From the NCBI GenBank assembly GCA_903842505.1, contig CAIMMI010000145.1, positions 1 to 38,444 on the forward strand: 38,444 bases of DNA. The letters run 5' to 3'. This DNA is from an uncultured Verrucomicrobiota bacterium. GTDB taxonomy: Bacteria; Verrucomicrobiota; Verrucomicrobiia; Limisphaerales; UBA9464. The notes beneath the pieces are model-generated. The model did no database searches and had not been told where the DNA came from. It saw nothing but the letters and a program-made list of their open reading frames with translations. This document shows positions 127 to 38,411 of this stretch, piece by piece (position 1 is the first letter of the stretch; every line of letters begins with the position of its first letter). Both the position numbers and the translations under genes were made by a program.

Positions 127-319
127 GGTCGTAGCCGACGAGGTAACGAGGCGGGACGTGAAGAGCTCCAAGTTTTAAGGTTCAAGGTTCAAGCCCGTCC
201 CATGGCTTCCAACTTGAATCTGAAATCTTCAAACTCCCCAGCCCCAGCCTCCTTACGTCGGCTGCTACGGACTGCTACGGGCTTCAAACTTGAATCCGAA
301 ATCTTCAAACTCCCCCGCC
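127..319. repeat. Intergenic repeat-rich leader with GTAGC...GAGGC and TTGAATC elements
   Basis: This 190-bp gap holds no gene of its own. It has a forward GTAGC..GAGGC element at 131-152 and an inverted one at 247-268. There are also two near-identical copies of an A+T-richer element, at 211-239 and 284-315, each running CTTGAATC..AAATCTTC then AAACTCCCC. The second copy ends right at the ATG of the response regulator. The same elements recur at 8.07 kb, 22.74 kb and 36.75-36.95 kb. Confidence 0.75.
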
Positions 320-8065: not shown

Positions 8066-8089
8066 CAGTTTTCGGATTCAAGATTCAAG
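8066..8089 (-). repeat. TTGAATC-type dispersed element upstream of the deoxyhypusine-synthase-like gene
   Basis: On the minus strand this reads GCTTGAATCTTGAATCCGAA, a member of the same element seen at 211-239, 284-315 and 36781-36955. It lies in the 91-bp gap between the membrane-protein gene and the deoxyhypusine-synthase-like gene and supplies an in-frame TTG before the ATG. Confidence 0.6.
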
Positions 8090-12480: not shown

Positions 12481-13134
12481 CTCAACCTGTACGCCGCTTG
12501 GAAAGCCACGCTGGAGACGTTCCTCCAGCCCTGCCTCGCCATCGCATTCCCGGCGCTCGCCGACCTCAATCTGGAGCCTTGGATCACAGCTGGGAATCCG
12601 GTGGCCCGCGTGATCGAGGCGCATCGGATGGCGCAGAAAACCGGCAGGGACGCGAAGGCGCGTCGGAACGGCAAGCTGGGCTTGGTGCGGCAGTTGTTGG
12701 AGTCGGGCATGAGCGAAGTCGAGGTCCGGGAGGTCATGCGCCTGATCCACTGGCTGCTGGCGCTGCCCGAGGAGGAGGAGTTAGGATTTCGGGAGGATGT
12801 AAACGATATGGAAGCGAGTATGCAGACCAAACGACGGAGCACCTACGAGCGGATCGTCTGGGAGGAGGGCGTGGAACGGGGCTTGGCCCAAGGTCGCGAC
12901 GAAGGCCGACAGGAAGGCCGACAGGAAGGCCGGCTGGAGGGACAGTTGGAGGGACGCCACTCTGCCGCCCGCGAACTCCTGCTGGACCTCATTCGCGTCC
13001 GGTTTGGCACCTGCACTCCGGCTGTCCGCAACCGAGTGGAAGCGATCGAGGATGAGGCGAGGCTTCGGAAACTGGCCCTCGCGGTCGTCACGGTCTCGTC
13101 CTTGTCCGAGTTCGAAGGCCTTGCCATCGAATAG
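12481..13134 (+). pseudogene. Rpn-family nuclease with its catalytic core deleted
   Basis: This is a paralogue of the intact gene at 23466-24494. It aligns over AAWKATLETFLQPCL at the N-terminus, then jumps from FPALAD directly to LNLEPW. That is an in-frame loss equivalent to residues 34-149 of the intact copy (about 348 bp), and it removes the nuclease motifs (D63, E83, Q85 of the paralogue). The rest, AGNPVARVIEAHR through to the C-terminal helix bundle, is retained, including MEASMQTKRRSTYERIVWEE and a stretch of ExGR tetrapeptides. No plausible ATG precedes the homology, so the start is also lost. The remaining frame has no stop for 650 bp, so the deletion may be recent or the C-terminal part may still be made. 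Confidence 0.8.
12901..12960 (+). repeat. 12-bp tandem repeat coding for EGRQ tetrapeptides
   Basis: Five units of 12 bp: two perfect copies of GAAGGCCGACAG, then diverging GAAGGCCGGCTG, GAGGGACAGTTG and GAGGGACGCCAC. They sit in the spacer before the C-terminal helix of the Rpn remnant. The paralogue at 23466-24494 carries a different 12-bp unit at the same place. Confidence 0.75.
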
Positions 13135-17500: not shown

Positions 17501-18281
17501 CCTCGCCGCCCTCACCGAGGCTGTGAGCAGCACCCACGGCGAATGCATCGCCCGCACCGCCGCCCGCGACGAGCACCTCGGCCGCCGCCCCACCGAAGAC
17601 CCGGAACCCACCGTCCTCGCCGACCTCGCGCAACGACGCGTCCATCTGCAGGAGACGGAGGATCAGCTGGCCAAGGCCAAGGCTGAAATCCTTCAGGACG
17701 ACTTCCGTCGTTCCCAGTCCGCTGAACTCATTGAACAGCTCAATCGCCAGCGCGCCCAGGCGGCGCCCTGGCAACAATTGAATGCGTTGATCGGTTCCGC
17801 CGACGGCGCCCGGTTCCGATCCATCGCCCAGCGCCACACGCTCGACCTGCTGCTCCTGGATGCCAACGCCCAACTCGAACTCATCGCCGCCCGCTACCGT
17901 CTCGAACGCCTTCCCGAATCATTGAACCTGGTCGTGATCGACCGCGACATGGGCGACGAACGGCGCGGCGTCCACTCGCTCTCCGGTGGCGAATCGTTCC
18001 TCGTCTCACTGGCCCTGGCCCTGGGTCTGGCCTCCCTCACCTCCAGCCGCGTCCGGATCGAGTCCCTGTTCATCGACGAAGGCTTCGGCAGCCTCGACCA
18101 GGAAACCCTGAACACCGCGATGGGCGCCCTCATGCACCTCGAAGCCCAGGGCCGGAAGGTCGGTGTCATCTCGCACGTCACCGAGATGGCCGACGCCATC
18201 CCCGTCCAGATCCGCTTGGTTCGCGGCCGTGGCGGGGCTTCGCGCCTCGTCGTCCCCGGTCAAGAATCCACGAGGCTGTAG
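14511..18281 (+). CDS. sbcC: SMC-like ATPase subunit SbcC
   Basis: ATPase/tether subunit (1256 residues, within the family range of ~1000-1250) of the SbcCD complex. The N-terminal ABC half has Walker A SGPTGSGKS at residues 36-44 and the Q-loop LAQNEFAGFLKADDKERA. Two long coiled-coil stretches flank a zinc hook, CPVCGASDHP, with C620 and C623. The C-terminal half has the signature LSGGESF at about 1157-1163 and Walker B SLFIDEGFGSLD at about 1184-1196, followed by the D-loop. All catalytic elements are intact. The TAG stop at 18279-18281 lies within the first copy of a 76-bp tandem repeat, so the last codons may have been set by that insertion. Confidence 0.95.
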   Translation: MKILRIRLRNLASLAGTHSVDFTREPLASAGLFSISGPTGSGKSTLLDALCLALYEHTPRLASARGEALPDGKDGVQQKDPANLLRRGTTEGFAEVAFIGMDGQTYTARWSVRRARQRLEGKLQKAEMAMYRGDVVEGVGGELLQGGRKTEVLEAIEQKVGLTFEQFTRAVLLAQNEFAGFLKADDKERALILQALTGSHRFERLSVAAFERERRELELIRDIESRMQGQVPLAPDLRTAAEQACEIAGHAVEESRRAVDTRVGHVGWFDRLRELEGAVVDARARHEAGLRRVEDAAPRRAELERSTEVLQSSQSLHRAERESLRQRDESVRNHAIALQRQDQARITAADAARIATEARAQLNSSRGERDAAAPILHQARTLDAELLPAADRLKSAQQERRVADTRLLESTQRSQDLATELAFHRQTLESLEQQRAGDRHLDPFLPEAAGWIERLGAALRARAQRDAARRRSSESAESLQRLTGQLEILRPSVAAVRETLARFTHEHARLRVTLQAFDTAGLARERQELDATLHLLADARTHLGTAQTLGTQINDQTHEAARLQNLISDQSRMLADIQQRQLPRAENSWITARDLLANAQAAIGNAAGSLRAGLRPSQPCPVCGASDHPYATHAPEANAMLDALRSAAEQHQRAFEDLRTESTRLETLLKTHAASLTTTHTSLSQLEQRRSAARTRAFQDPSLAEGFSLTESEALEFIGSRQTDCTRRRNELAQREEAQRRAADETDAARLRVESARQQAEAEERKLGELERSRAAAHAAQEADRSNADHAARTDLEAFAASMPLLDILPDPDKASLSDDPVPVLTRIQDRLRQLAEIESKLRQTRQLLDSSQARLDAEARELHLAREGATQAQAAEQATTLAHATLLTRRQTLLGGRSVDEETRRLDALQGTAERHVASATEAEAESGKALADATGAVRAATEALEQFTQRAAISTAAYNDWLSAFGVRTGLDLGRAYVEGVLARGEAWFTQERADLAALTEAVSSTHGECIARTAARDEHLGRRPTEDPEPTVLADLAQRRVHLQETEDQLAKAKAEILQDDFRRSQSAELIEQLNRQRAQAAPWQQLNALIGSADGARFRSIAQRHTLDLLLLDANAQLELIAARYRLERLPESLNLVVIDRDMGDERRGVHSLSGGESFLVSLALALGLASLTSSRVRIESLFIDEGFGSLDQETLNTAMGALMHLEAQGRKVGVISHVTEMADAIPVQIRLVRGRGGASRLVVPGQESTRL

Positions 18282-18494
18282 GCCCGGGTGCCCCCACCCG
18301 GCACAGTCCATGAATCGCCGCGTGAGGGCACGCGGCCTACAATCCATGACACTGTAGGCCCGGGTGCCCCACCCGGCGCAGTCCCATGCTTCGCCGCGTG
18401 AGGGCACGCGGCCTACAATCCATGACACTGTAGGCCCGGGTGCCCCCACCCGGCGCAGTCCATGAATCGCCGCGTGAGGGCACGCGGCCTACAA
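18276..18494. repeat. Three tandem copies of a 76-bp palindromic repeat
   Basis: Copies start at 18276, 18352 and 18428, a spacing of exactly 76 bp. Each contains TGTAGGCCCGGGTGCCC at the left and GGGCACGCGGCCTACA at the right, which are imperfect reverse complements and form a REP-like hairpin of about 65 nt. Between copies is a 10-base spacer ATCCATGACA. The copies differ at only a few bases (for example GGCACAG versus GGCGCAG, and CATGAAT versus CATGCTT). The sbcC stop codon is inside copy 1. A palindromic structure could end sbcC transcription. The remaining 48 bp before the next start at 18542 hold nothing else recognised. Confidence 0.9.
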
Positions 18495-23465: not shown

Positions 23466-24494
23466 TCAACTGCCAATCCGTGCCTCAAACTCCGCCATCG
23501 TGGACATCGTGAAGACCGATCGGGCCAACGCCCTCAGCCGGGCCTCGTCCTGGATCGCGTCCACCCGAGCCCGAAACGCATCGCCGCAGGGCCCGAAGCG
23601 GTCGCTGACCAGATCCAGAAGCAGGTCCCGCGCGGCTGCATGGCGGCCCCGCTCCAGACCCCGCTCCAGACCCCGCTCCAGACCCCGCTCCAGGCCTTGC
23701 TCCAGGCCTTGCGCCCGGCCCTGTTCCCGCCCTGCCTCCAGCCCCTCTTCCCACACGATCCGCTCGTAGGTACTCCGTCGCTTCGTTTGCATGCTCGCCT
23801 CCATCTGTTTCACATCTTTCCTCAATCTTAGCTCCTCCTCCTCCGGCAACGCCAGCAGCCAGTGGATCAGGCGCATCACCTCCCGGACCTCCAATTCTCC
23901 CATTCCCGACTCAAGCAGTTGCCTCACCAATCCCAGCTTCCCGCTCCGCCGGGCCCTCATGTTCCGTCCCGTGCCCTGCGCGATGCGATGTGCTTCGATC
24001 ACCCGCGCCACCGGGTTCCCGGCTTTGATCCATGGCTCCAGATCCAGGTCGGTGAGCTTGCAGATCCCATAGTCGAACCGAAGCGATGATGCAGGGCCCC
24101 GGAATTCGTACGCCTTGGGACGCCACCGCTGATTCGCATCCGCGAGGATCACGACGCTCGTCGGCATCCAGCCAAACCGGTCCAGAATCCGGCACAGGTA
24201 ACGGAACATCCGGAACGGCAGTTGGTCGTCCCGCTGTGCCTGAACCTCCACGTGCACCAGCAACACGTCCTTGGCCCCATCCTTCCGTTGCACCTCCACC
24301 AGCTTGTCGACCCGCATGGGACCGCCTTCGGAATCGCGGACGATCTCCTGAAGTTCGGTGTCCAGAAAGCGCGGCGGGGCGGACCAGTCGATCTGGTCAG
24401 CCAGGCGCGGGAACGCGAGGGAAAGGCAGGGCTGGAGGAACGTCTCCAGCGTTGCCTTCCACGCGGCGTCATATTCCGTGACGGGATTCAACAC
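23466..24494 (-). CDS. Rpn-family PD-(D/E)XK nuclease (TIGR01784/putative transposase type), intact
   Basis: A 342-residue protein of the recombination-promoting nuclease group. The PD-(D/E)XK core is visible: MRVDKLVEVQ with D63, then LLVHVEVQAQRDD with E83 and Q85. RMFRYLCRILDRFGW is followed by SVVILADANQRWRP, a family hallmark. Such proteins cut DNA non-specifically, raise recombination, and some have been linked to phage defence or mobile DNA. A C-terminal region with GLER tetrapeptide repeats (residues ~245-280) and a helix bundle probably serves in oligomerisation. The start is a GTG at 24494, 24 residues ahead of FLQPCLSLAFP. No other transposon gene or inverted repeats flank it. Its degraded sister is at 12481-13134. 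Confidence 0.82.
   Translation of the reverse strand: MLNPVTEYDAAWKATLETFLQPCLSLAFPRLADQIDWSAPPRFLDTELQEIVRDSEGGPMRVDKLVEVQRKDGAKDVLLVHVEVQAQRDDQLPFRMFRYLCRILDRFGWMPTSVVILADANQRWRPKAYEFRGPASSLRFDYGICKLTDLDLEPWIKAGNPVARVIEAHRIAQGTGRNMRARRSGKLGLVRQLLESGMGELEVREVMRLIHWLLALPEEEELRLRKDVKQMEASMQTKRRSTYERIVWEEGLEAGREQGRAQGLEQGLERGLERGLERGLERGRHAAARDLLLDLVSDRFGPCGDAFRARVDAIQDEARLRALARSVFTMSTMAEFEARIGS
23647..23754 (-). repeat. 12-bp tandem repeat coding for GLER tetrapeptides
   Basis: Eight to nine 12-bp units of the type CCCCGCTCCAGA (plus-strand sequence). The first three are perfect, the later ones degenerate. On the minus strand they code for repeats of GLER and GQEQ-like tetrapeptides in the Rpn protein. 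The tract keeps reading frame, so its length can vary by whole tetrapeptides. Confidence 0.75.
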
Positions 24495-34388: not shown

Positions 34389-36800
34389 TCAGGGTGTGGG
34401 CTTGGGAGGGGTGGGTGCGTTGGTCGAGGCGGTCTCGACAGGGGGCGCGGCGATGGTCAAGGAGACCGGGGTGGTCTTCTGGCGCCAGGTGCGGTCGTTG
34501 TGCGTGTAGGCGGCCGTGACAGCGATCTTGTGTTCCTTGCCGGCCTCGGCCTTCTCAGTGACGAGGAGTTGGACGGTGGCTTCCTTGGCCTTGGCGGCGA
34601 CGGGTTGCACCGTGGCGATGACTCCAACCGGAACACCTTCCAGGGCCAGGCTGACTTCGCCGTCAAAGCCGCGGCGCTCGACCTTCACCACGAACTCGGT
34701 GCGGTTGGCGGCGGAGGCGGAATTCGTAGGCAACGCGACGGCAGAAAGTTTCACGGCGTCAGTGCGGAAGAACGGCGAACCCGGAAGCATGGCCGTGGCA
34801 TAGAGCGGAATGCCCTGGACCGTCAGGTCCGCAAAGCGCGGAGCGGACTGCACCAGGTTCTGGCCATCCACCAAACCCTCGGCACGGAAGGCAACGGGTC
34901 GGGTGCCGGTCCCGGCGTTGAAGGCGGCATTGAGCTGGAGCTGTCCGCGGGATTGTCCGGGAGGAAGGGTCAGGACCGGGATGTTCACGCCGCCGGGGCC
35001 GTCAGCGAGGACCTTGACCTCATTCGTGAATCCAGGCGCACGCGCCACCGCCACGTCGAGGACGACGGTCGTATTCTGTTCGACAGCGGCAGACGCCTGG
35101 CCGAGATCGACCGAGAACGGCGCGGGCGGAAGCACGGTGAGCCATCCGGCCTCGGAAAGCTGGACGGGACGCACGAACGGCTTGCCGCCGATTTCTGCCG
35201 TGGCCTGCAATCGCAACGGCAGGGAGGTCGCCGAGGCGTCGGCCGTGGCACCGATCAACAACCATCCGAAATCACTGCCGGCGCCGATGGTGCACGGCAC
35301 CACGGACACACCCGGGGGGAGGTTCTGGCCAGACACCCGCACGATGCCGTCAAAACCATTGCGCCGCGCAACCTCGCATCGGACGGCGAGCCATCCATCG
35401 CGATGGACGCGAACCCTTCCAACGCCCGTTCTCACACTGAAGTCGGGCGCGGTGTCCGGCTTCTGGATCACCATCCGGTAACCAAAACGTTCGCCACCGC
35501 GATCGGTCAGGTCGCGGAGGGAGATCAGGTACTCGACGTCCTTCTTCGCATCGAACTCGATCCGGGCATCGGGTCCGTTGGCGTCGTCGTTCCGCTGGAG
35601 CACCTTCCCCTGCGCGTCCTGGAGCGTAAGGAGGACGTCGAGCGGGGAGCCGAAACGGCGCGCAAGGACATCAACCGTCCAGCGTTGGTCGGCCGGGCTC
35701 TTGAAGCGGAAGGTGTCGAGGTCGCCCGGCATCCCGATGCGGCCGTTGAGCGCGATCGGTGCGGAGAGGGCGTTGGCCTTGTCGGCGGCGTTGTTCGGCT
35801 CGGCTTCGAGTTGCTCCGGGAGGTCGCCGACTTCGAAGCCGATCGGGTTGGAATAGCCGGCGGCGGTACGGGCGCGGATCTCCTGTCGGCCGAGAGGCGC
35901 ATCCGGGGCGAGCGCAAGCGTCAGGCGGTTGGCGCCTTCCAGTTGTTGGCCGAGGAGTTGGACCTCGACCGTCGAACCGCGTCGGCCGCCGAAGGGAAAC
36001 AGCGACTCAAGGTAAGGCCGGGTGCCGACGACGAAGTGGTAGGTATAACGGTCGCCACCGAGGTGACGCAGGTCGTTGAGGCGTGCGACGTACTCGCCAT
36101 CGGCCGGGGCCTTGAAGACGAGGAAGGGATCCAGGCCGTGGGCATCCTCGGAGCGGGCGAGTTCGGCGCCCTTGGAATCGAGCACGATCAATGTCGCATC
36201 CAGCGGGGAACCCGTGCGGTTCGCCTGGACGTCGAAGAGGATTTCCTGCCCGGCCTTCAGCGCGATCCGGTAGGCGTCGACTTCCGCGGAACCACCGATG
36301 CGACCCGAAATGGCGACGGGCGGCGTGATCAGCGGGAGGGAGGCGGGGTCGGAGGCACCGGCCGGTTCGAGGACCTCGCGCAGATCGGTCACCTGAAAGA
36401 GAAGCGGGTTCGACACACCGCCGGGTCCGGCCACGCGCAGTTCATGGGCACCGAGCGGGGCGTCCGCAGCGACGACGACCTGGAGGGCGAGCGATTTGGC
36501 GGGATCGGTCGGTCGGACCGCGATGCCGCCCAGCGAGCCTTCGAGGACCACGGCGGGCGTGGAGGAAGGGACGTCCGCGAGCCGGATGGCCTTGTGGGAG
36601 GCGAGGTGATCGGTGACGGCCGCGAGACCATCGCCAGAAAGCGTCACCGTGTTGGTCGTGCCCCGCTGGAGAAACGTGAGGGACGTGGAGTCCAGCCGCG
36701 GAACCGGCTGGATGGCCGCTTGGAGGAGGCCTCCTCCAACGAGTCCAATCGTAGCCACCGACGTCAGGAGGCGAGTGGAGTTTGAAGTTTGAAGATTCAA
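34389..36800 (-). CDS. Exported pre-peptidase C-terminal (PPC)-type domain protein, TTG start
   Basis: An 803-residue secreted protein of beta-sandwich domains. Motifs of PPC (bacterial pre-peptidase C-terminal) type recur, for example ISGRIGGSAEVDAYRIALKA, LNGRIGMPGDLDTFRF and FGSPLDVLLTLQDAQGK. Other parts look like cohesin- or IPT-type sandwiches (APLGAHELRVAGPGGVSN). This protein family regularly accompanies DUF1501 and cytochrome genes in this superphylum; the role is thought to be cell-surface binding. No ATG exists in frame before the signal-peptide region (RLLTSVATIGLVGGGLLQAA), an upstream in-frame stop rules out a longer form, and TTG at 36800 is the only start that keeps a charged n-region. 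Residues 3-16 come from a dispersed repeat (see findings). Codon use is otherwise native. Confidence 0.85.
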   Translation of the reverse strand: MNLQTSNSTRLLTSVATIGLVGGGLLQAAIQPVPRLDSTSLTFLQRGTTNTVTLSGDGLAAVTDHLASHKAIRLADVPSSTPAVVLEGSLGGIAVRPTDPAKSLALQVVVAADAPLGAHELRVAGPGGVSNPLLFQVTDLREVLEPAGASDPASLPLITPPVAISGRIGGSAEVDAYRIALKAGQEILFDVQANRTGSPLDATLIVLDSKGAELARSEDAHGLDPFLVFKAPADGEYVARLNDLRHLGGDRYTYHFVVGTRPYLESLFPFGGRRGSTVEVQLLGQQLEGANRLTLALAPDAPLGRQEIRARTAAGYSNPIGFEVGDLPEQLEAEPNNAADKANALSAPIALNGRIGMPGDLDTFRFKSPADQRWTVDVLARRFGSPLDVLLTLQDAQGKVLQRNDDANGPDARIEFDAKKDVEYLISLRDLTDRGGERFGYRMVIQKPDTAPDFSVRTGVGRVRVHRDGWLAVRCEVARRNGFDGIVRVSGQNLPPGVSVVPCTIGAGSDFGWLLIGATADASATSLPLRLQATAEIGGKPFVRPVQLSEAGWLTVLPPAPFSVDLGQASAAVEQNTTVVLDVAVARAPGFTNEVKVLADGPGGVNIPVLTLPPGQSRGQLQLNAAFNAGTGTRPVAFRAEGLVDGQNLVQSAPRFADLTVQGIPLYATAMLPGSPFFRTDAVKLSAVALPTNSASAANRTEFVVKVERRGFDGEVSLALEGVPVGVIATVQPVAAKAKEATVQLLVTEKAEAGKEHKIAVTAAYTHNDRTWRQKTTPVSLTIAAPPVETASTNAPTPPKPTP

Positions 36801-36955
36801 GTTTGAAGAGGGGAAGAGACCTGCCTCGTGACCTCGTCAGCTACGGCCGGATGGGTAGCCGACGACGTGAGGAGGCGGTGGGAGTTTCAAGTTTGAAGAG
36901 GGGAAGGCGGCTGGCTTGTTGCCGGACTTGAATCTTCAATCTTCAAACTTGGCAC
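36751..36955. repeat. Cluster of GTAGC...GAGGC and TTGAATC/TTCAAAC repeats
   Basis: Members: a 44-bp copy at 36751-36794 (inside the 803-residue gene), a reverse copy at 36823-36844, a forward 44-bp copy at 36855-36898, and TTCAA/TTGAA elements at 36781-36812 and about 36926-36955. The forward copies at 36751 and 36855 match at 37 of 44 positions. The pair 36823-36844 and 36855-36876 is an inverted repeat with a 10-bp spacer and can form a hairpin. Confidence 0.85.
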
Positions 36956-36956
36956 T

Positions 36957-38411
36957 TCACGAGAACAACCCGGTGACCGGTTCCGCCTGGACGAGTTCGC
37001 GGGGTTGGTTGAGGTGGTTCATCACGATCGTGTGCGGATCGATCCCCAGCGCGTGATAGATCGTGGCGACGATCTGTGTGGGATGCACCGGCGAGTCGGC
37101 CGGCGAGGATCCGGTGGCATCGGAACGACCGTATAACGCGCCGCGGGAGACGCCGGCGCCCGCGATGAACGCGGTATAGCAATAAGGCCAGTGATCGCGA
37201 CCGTCGGGCGAGTTCGTGTTGCCGCTGGTGGAGACGCCAAGGCGCGGGCTCCGACCGAATTCACCCAGGGCGACGACGAGGGTTTCCTTGAGCAAACCGC
37301 GTTGGTCGAGGTCGTCGAGGAGGGCGCTGAGGCCGGAGTCGAGCTTCGGGCAATGGATGTTCCGAAGGGGACCGAAGTTGGCGGCGTGCGTGTCCCAGGC
37401 ATCCACGGTGGGATCCCCGTTGGCGACGGCGGGCCAGTTCATCTGGACGACGCGCGTGCCGGCCTCGACGAGACGCCGGGCGAGGAGACAGCCCTGGCCA
37501 AACGTATGACGACCGTAGCGATCGCGGAGGGCTTCGGCCTCCTTGGTCAGGTCGAAGGCGTCGCGGGCGCGGCCGCTGGAAACGAGGTCGAAGGCCTTCT
37601 GATAGTACGAGTCGAGGGCGTACTTCTCGACCGCCTTCTCCATGTCGGGCATGGCGTCGTTGACGGACTTCAACAGCCGGGACCGGCGTTCGAGGCGTTC
37701 GCGGGAAACCTCCGGGCGCAGGGTGAGGTCCGCGAGGTTCAGTTCCTTGGCGGGGTCCTGGTAGAAGTAATACGGATCGAACGCCGCGCCGAGGAACCCG
37801 GCCGTGCCGCCCTTTCCGATGACGTTCGATTCCTGCAACGGACGCGGCAGCATGACGAACGGCAGCATCGGGACCTCGGGCGGACGCAGTCGGGCGATCT
37901 GCGAACCGAGGTGCGGGAAGTCGTTCGGCGCGGGCGGCTCCAGCTGGCCGGAGGGCGACACGCGGTCGGGCGTGTAGCCGGTCATGATCTGGTAGATCGC
38001 GGCCGTGTGGTTGAAGAGTCCAACAGGCGTGTAGCTCATCGAGCGGATGAGGGTCGCCTTGTCCATCTGCTGGGCGAGCTTCGGCATCACCTCGCTCAGC
38101 TGGATGCCGGGGACCTTGGTGCGGATGGGCTTGAAGTCGCCGCGGATGTTCGAGGGGGCGTCGGGCTTCGGATCCCAGATGTCGATGTGGCTGGGTCCGC
38201 CCTGCAGGTAGAGGATGATGACGGACTTGGCGCGGCCCCACCCGTTGCGGGGTTGGGAGGCGGCGGGACCGGCGGTGGCCGATTGCTGGGCCTGGAGCTT
38301 GAGGATGTTCGCGAGGCTCAGGCCGGCAAGGCCCGCGCCACCGATGCGCAGGAACTCGCGGCGGGAGAAGCCGTCACACGTGGCGCCGTATTGGCCGGGG
38401 ATGGAGATCAT
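36957..38411 (-). CDS. DUF1501 family protein with Tat signal
   Basis: A 484-residue exported protein. The Tat signal [19 protein letters not shown] is at residues 16-34. The alkaline-phosphatase-like DUF1501 fold is recognised by [66 protein letters not shown] and [15 protein letters not shown]. Most of the metal-binding D/H residues of the alkaline-phosphatase superfamily are present (D-W-DTH, D-H). The function is unknown; genes of this type are always near DUF1549/1553 proteins, as here. The ATG at 38411 starts MISIPGQ. It is 15 bp after the stop of the upstream partial gene and 156 bp before the PPC-type gene, with the repeat cluster in that gap. Confidence 0.95.

Follow-up and report, generated by a model that had tools for sequence, protein, structure and literature searches.

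The window analysed here is the whole 38,444-nt stretch of DNA, taken from a genome (G000) of a freshwater verrucomicrobial MAG lineage. On its minus strand, ORF analysis and translation revealed a gene of 803 codons for a secreted protein with a PPC domain (34389–36800; Pfam PPC PF04151, E = 3e-9), with orthologues in about 28 relatives that are alignable over most of its length. The frame is preceded by an in-frame stop at 36839 and, as the earlier note described, opens with a TTG at 36800. Its conserved upstream neighbour is a DUF1501 gene (36957–38411, minus strand; Pfam PF07394). The first 17 codons of the PPC gene are derived from a repeat, and a recount of the match between 36751–36794 and 36855–36898 returned the 37 identical positions of 44 given before.

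The repeat: REP core and heptad tract

The 44-bp element is a genuine repeat, but it is a composite of two parts rather than a single unit. The first is a REP core (36751–36774, plus strand), defined by pattern search, consensus and covariation, whose antisense strand encodes approximately codons 9–17, (T/P)RLLTS(V/A)AT. The second is a tract of TTTGAAG/ATTCAAG heptads (about 36777–36808, plus strand), recognised by sequence and repeat search, which supplies the TTG and codons 2–8. Such heptad tracts follow some REP copies. The arginine and the first hydrophobic residues thus come from the REP core and the TTG from the heptads.

A pattern search with the REP core, GTAGCCG(A/C)CGACGTNAGGAGGCGG, located 500 places in the genome (265 + 235; up to 3 mismatches in a 23-nt core), while the reversed-pattern control located 4 (4 + 0), which places the match between 36751–36794 and 36855–36898 far above chance. 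The unit is a 24–25-nt imperfect hairpin with covarying stem positions. Among 178 distinct copies, the strongest covariation was observed at positions 12–17 (C-G/G-C), 6–23 (C-G, A-T, T-A) and 5–24; inside these pairs lie two invariant G.A/A.G mismatches and a GTNA loop. The GTAG tag lies 5' of the stem and is conserved at 96–99% per base. Folding energies of single units are modest. Neighbouring copies stand in opposite orientation in 161 of 201 pairs, and convergent spacers hold the most copies per base. By called gene ends, 403 of 422 copies were intergenic in a sample of 1.5 Mb of G000 around known REP copies, with counts biased to element-rich stretches and genes called with a simple hexamer model; a general enrichment of copies at gene 5' ends was tested for and rejected. 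Its GTAG tag, imperfect palindrome, high dispersed copy number and mostly intergenic, oppositely oriented pairs identify the repeat as a GTAG-type REP.

Further copies were identified in the window. In the spacer between the DUF1501 and PPC genes, a REP at 36823–36844 (minus strand) pairs with one at 36855–36878 (plus strand), the latter followed by heptads. Two intergenic copies lie 5' of a response regulator (131–152, plus strand; 247–268, minus strand), together with a heptad tract (280–319, plus strand) that contains an in-frame TTG at 290. The TTGs proposed to be supplied by the element at 290 and at 8081, before a deoxyhypusine-synthase-like gene, do lie in repeat sequence, but as heptad tract alone, with no REP core at 8081. 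Better ATGs had been noted for both genes: the response regulator is served by the ATG at 320, which leaves its TTG unneeded, and the deoxyhypusine-synthase-like gene is probably served by an ATG.

Start codon, export signal and history of the PPC gene

The TTG (36798–36800, minus strand) lies inside the heptad tract and, according to the list of in-frame starts and the alignment with the sister species G006, is the sole canonical in-frame start common to both genomes. It had been described as the only workable start; a second canonical in-frame start, a GTG at 36758, exists ahead of the mature protein, so that only the restriction to starts shared by both species holds. No Shine-Dalgarno motif precedes the TTG, which is no objection, given that the motif is found at only about 13% of called genes. 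Behind the element lies the native remainder of the signal peptide, codons 18–33 from IGLVGGGLLQAAIQPV (36702–36749, minus strand), which is kept between the species under constraint (dN/dS 0.12). Signal-peptide calls were made with a home-made hydropathy/charge rule; under this simple Sec rule (positive n-region, hydrophobic h-region, small residues at -3/-1), the target passes only with the TTG start.

An alternative is that the REP is merely 5' untranslated, with initiation downstream at the GTG at 36758, an ATT at 36749 or later, and that N-terminal REPs in general are an annotation illusion. The GTG is present and is preferred by the hexamer gene caller, and misannotated starts have a published precedent (Di Nocera et al., PMC3733652). 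Against this, the GTG codon reads GCG in G006 and is usable in G000 alone, a start there would leave zero positive charge before the hydrophobic stretch, and the relatives carry an export-signal-like N-terminus at the same place. We regard this explanation as unlikely, and infer initiation at the TTG and Sec export of the product.

Comparison with the relatives indicates how the present N-terminus arose. In G001, G002, G004, G008 and others, the PPC gene begins with an ATG, encodes a different N-terminus and has no element; in G001, this start lies within a few bases of the DUF1501 stop. These ordinary starts in element-free orthologues agree with the earlier suggestion that the gene owes its start region, its n-region arginine and the first part of its hydrophobic core to the repeat. 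None of the 28 orthologues checked has the same N-terminal residues without the repeat. The element-derived N-terminus is also inherited in G006, whose PPC protein is 92% identical to that of G000: LKLETSNFPRLLTSAATIGLVGGG in G006 and LNLQTSNSTRLLTSVATIGLVGGG in G000 share the same TTG and the same junction without an indel, while the spacer upstream of the gene is indel-rich between the two species.

Over the whole gene, which is intact in both species, dS is 0.53 and dN/dS 0.08. In the 17 element codons, 9 of the 51 bases differ and dN/dS is a relaxed 0.44; this number of differences is below the expectation from the synonymous rate (pS) of the gene (binomial P about 0.0015). Homogenisation among REP copies could also reduce divergence of the element, so the low value is supportive and not proof. 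We read these patterns as a single old insertion, inherited and held in frame under weak to moderate constraint.

The open frame across the element might instead be chance or neutral debris in a pseudogene or a gene that is losing its signal. The relaxed dN/dS over the element would fit such decay, and the RLLTS and VAADVRR frames of the REP are stop-free by composition, so an open frame alone proves little. This is very improbable given a downstream gene that is intact in both species with a dN/dS of 0.08 at a dS of about 0.53, element codons free of indels, and the recurrence of REPs in five export signals (see below).

The reading that we favour, and consider probable, is that a REP with its heptad tail was inserted into an old secreted-protein gene and is now translated from the TTG as the start of the export signal. 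The insertion into the 5' end of the gene would have occurred in or before the common ancestor of G000 and G006 and would have cost the gene its native start codon, its n-region and the first part of the hydrophobic segment. Translation would then begin at the TTG inside the repeat tract, with the heptad (LNLQTSNS) and REP (..RLLTSVAT) codons forming the n-region, its only positive charge and the start of the h-region, and with the native h/c-region retained behind them. What the insertion changed was the start and n-region of a long-standing secreted protein; it created no new one. The earlier note had presented the repeat as a possible maker of new secreted proteins; the host protein is old, conserved and secreted, and the repeat overwrote part of its native signal.

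Translated REPs in other genes

Translated REPs were identified in seven genes, and in five of these they lie N-terminally within an export signal (four Sec-like, one prepilin-like). For three of the five N-terminal cases, REPs were found at the same place in G006. In addition to the PPC gene, REPs occupy the N-terminal export signal of C80, a PQQ-repeat protein (MNPLPVAADVRRQSPPFPAPAVAADVRRRVAPLSPLPVAADVRRRVAPLLTTLLTLALGTASAQA; three units of 48 bp). At the same place, its G006 orthologue carries a single unit (VAVDVRRR); the orthologues in G002 and G007 have none. In C131/C256, of the DUF1080 (3-keto-disaccharide hydrolase) family, four and three units of 45 bp were observed, following the pattern MTTPSPSQAP(VAADVRRQSPVPSPS)n..RRLPLLLLTLLSTSALAA; the array is absent in G006 and G002. 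The contigs of C131 (end of L173) and C256 (start of L196) break inside what is apparently the same 45-bp REP array, in one signal peptide. REPs in the N-terminal export signal of C21a (..VVRLLTSAATAATVVALEARAAEA) are likewise absent in G006 and G002.

The neighbouring gene, C21b, encodes a prepilin-type leader with REPs (MKVVGFEKGGRIPPPDVVGYGERDGGADARLLTSSATGNGGRGESRLLTSSATG|FSLVELLVVV). The leader, ..RLLTSSATG|FSLVELLVVVAVIAILAG, has a Gly at -1 followed by an F(S/T)LVELL hydrophobic segment, as in type IV prepilins, and the orthologues read GFTLVELL or GFSLVELL. A Pfam search with C21b from its truncated start gave no match. In the G006 orthologue (L314), a different REP pair occupies the same leader; the array is rearranged and the frame is kept. 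The precursors would contain peptides such as ..LLTSVATIGLVGG or VAADVRR. Internal translated REPs were found in C66 and C298.

Two of these genes bear on whether N-terminal REPs are an annotation illusion. In C80 and C256, the stretch from the REPs to the mature protein holds no canonical start; a product made with its signal must therefore include the translated REPs.

All statistics on coding REPs are post hoc and concern seven genes, among which the adjacent C21a and C21b may not be independent. Same-strand copies are spaced by a multiple of 3 in 13 of 14 steps in coding arrays vs 11 of 35 in intergenic arrays (P = 1e-4), and in 7 of 8 coding vs 8 of 27 intergenic cases when independent arrays are counted (P = 0.011). 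An exported appearance characterises all five N-terminal cases, compared with 28% of called genes under a similar crude rule. The REP falls within about the first tenth of the gene in five of the seven genes (P about 2e-4 under uniform placement).

In its strong form, the idea of the repeat as a dedicated carrier of a start codon and signal sequence that creates new secreted proteins can draw on REP frames that yield Arg and hydrophobic residues, and on their presence in five export signals. It is largely refuted by the intergenic position of nearly all sampled copies, by host proteins that are old orthologues, and by a native ATG 5' of the REPs in C80, C131/C256 and C21b. Nor are the copies read in one frame, a pattern for which a test had been suggested: RLLTS-A (antisense) and VAADVRR (sense) both occur, so that two frames and both strands are in use. 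We give this strong form next to no credence.

A broader reading, on which we are evenly divided, is that this lineage has repeatedly drawn on REPs as raw material for the N-termini of export signals, with selection filtering insertions and expansions into Sec and prepilin signals, and with a start codon that is replaceable. The most likely mechanism, which belongs to the reading that we favour, is tolerance combined with filtering. REPs would land mainly between genes, and most insertions within genes would be purged. The n-regions of export signals may accept nearly any short stop-free peptide, provided that a positive charge remains ahead of the hydrophobic stretch; the REP frames VAADVRR(R/Q) and RLLTSAA would be such peptides, and insertions in n-regions would survive. 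Gain or loss of whole units, each 3n bases long, could then change the length of the arrays with the frame kept.

A translated REP array of VAADVRRQSP units (L091:3174–3273) lies in a large membrane-type protein, and another of PPDVGGY-type units (L132:9956–10253) in a CusB/HlyD-like protein, both away from the N-terminus. REP copies at L150:4756–4777 and L180:7758–7779 overlap gene 3' ends and probably supply the stop codon, as in other GTAG REPs. An apparent N-terminal REP in L183 was discarded as an artefact of masked bases, and numerous REPs that fall within in-frame 5' extensions of further genes were set aside, as those genes have ordinary starts downstream.

Relatives, RAYTs and known repeat systems

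Copies of the REP are plentiful in G006, G002 and G003; G007 also has the REP, and G001, G004, G005 and G008 have none or almost none. Among congeners, copy numbers of 106, 99, 64 and 25 were obtained, with none or one copy in four others, and 22 of 50 genomes in the family, about half, carry the repeat. Two RAYT-like Y1 transposase genes were identified in G000, with NCBIfam REP_Tyr_transpos scores of 53–57 bits, below the cut-off of 80. The flanks of both genes were searched and contain no REP of this GTAG type. One RAYT in G007 has a variant REP copy about 380 bp downstream. Based on the literature, the REP is probably mobilised by a RAYT. The alternating orientation of paired REPs in G000, along with its two RAYT-like genes, resembles the RAYT-mobilised REPINs/BIMEs; the lack of a flanking REP of this type at the G000 genes is a difference.

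The GTAG REP superfamily (families GTAG-1 to -24) includes repeats of the verrucomicrobium Opitutus terrae (Di Nocera et al. 2013, PMC3733652). Its members are described as imperfect palindromes of 20–40 nt with complementary stem variants and hundreds of copies, mostly intergenic, with a preference for convergent and unidirectional spacers, and in dimers of opposite orientation (PMC3733652), and the G000 repeat shares the tag, palindrome, copy number, dimers and intergenic bias. Some GTAG REPs have been reported in frame inside ORFs, including ORF N-termini; most of the N-terminal ones were judged extragenic on account of misannotated starts, and DNA-repair genes were stressed (PMC3733652). 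In contrast to that report, the N-terminal REPs of G000 lie in export signals, three cases recur at one position in both species, and for two no start exists further downstream.

Rickettsia palindromic elements (RPEs) are likewise palindromic repeats that sit in frame within protein genes and leave the host gene functional; PMC3733652 cites a report that RPE-1 is expressed at N-termini. RPEs have another sequence and lineage and variable positions in ORFs, whereas translated REPs of G000 are in N-terminal export signals in five of seven genes. An assignment of the repeat to the RPEs was rejected, as the host is verrucomicrobial and the sequence is that of a GTAG REP and not of the Rickettsiales family.

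REPs in ORFs are thus known; what is new is that they have been recruited into export signals more than once. Our literature search returned no case of REPs as signal peptides and no description of repeated REP recruitment into export signals with insertion-free relatives. The relatives without the insertion show a non-coding mobile repeat becoming functional coding sequence in bacteria, and the findings point to export signals as a tolerant landing site at which mobile repeats can turn coding. At least five genes are available for testing whether N-terminal REPs are genuine protein, the view taken here, or a product of faulty annotation.

Other repeats were also noted in the window. Three tandem 76-bp units of another GC-rich palindromic repeat (TGTAGGCCCGGGTGCCCC..) occupy the spacer between two genes at 18257–18494, and a related GTAGGCC repeat was found in the DUF1501–PPC spacer of G002 (L037). 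Tandem repeats of 12 bp (CCCCGCTCCAGA) at 23635–23718 lie within or border a coding region. An inverted pair of 365 nt (12555–12919 and 23693–24057), 78% identical, has the appearance of two diverged paralogous genes.
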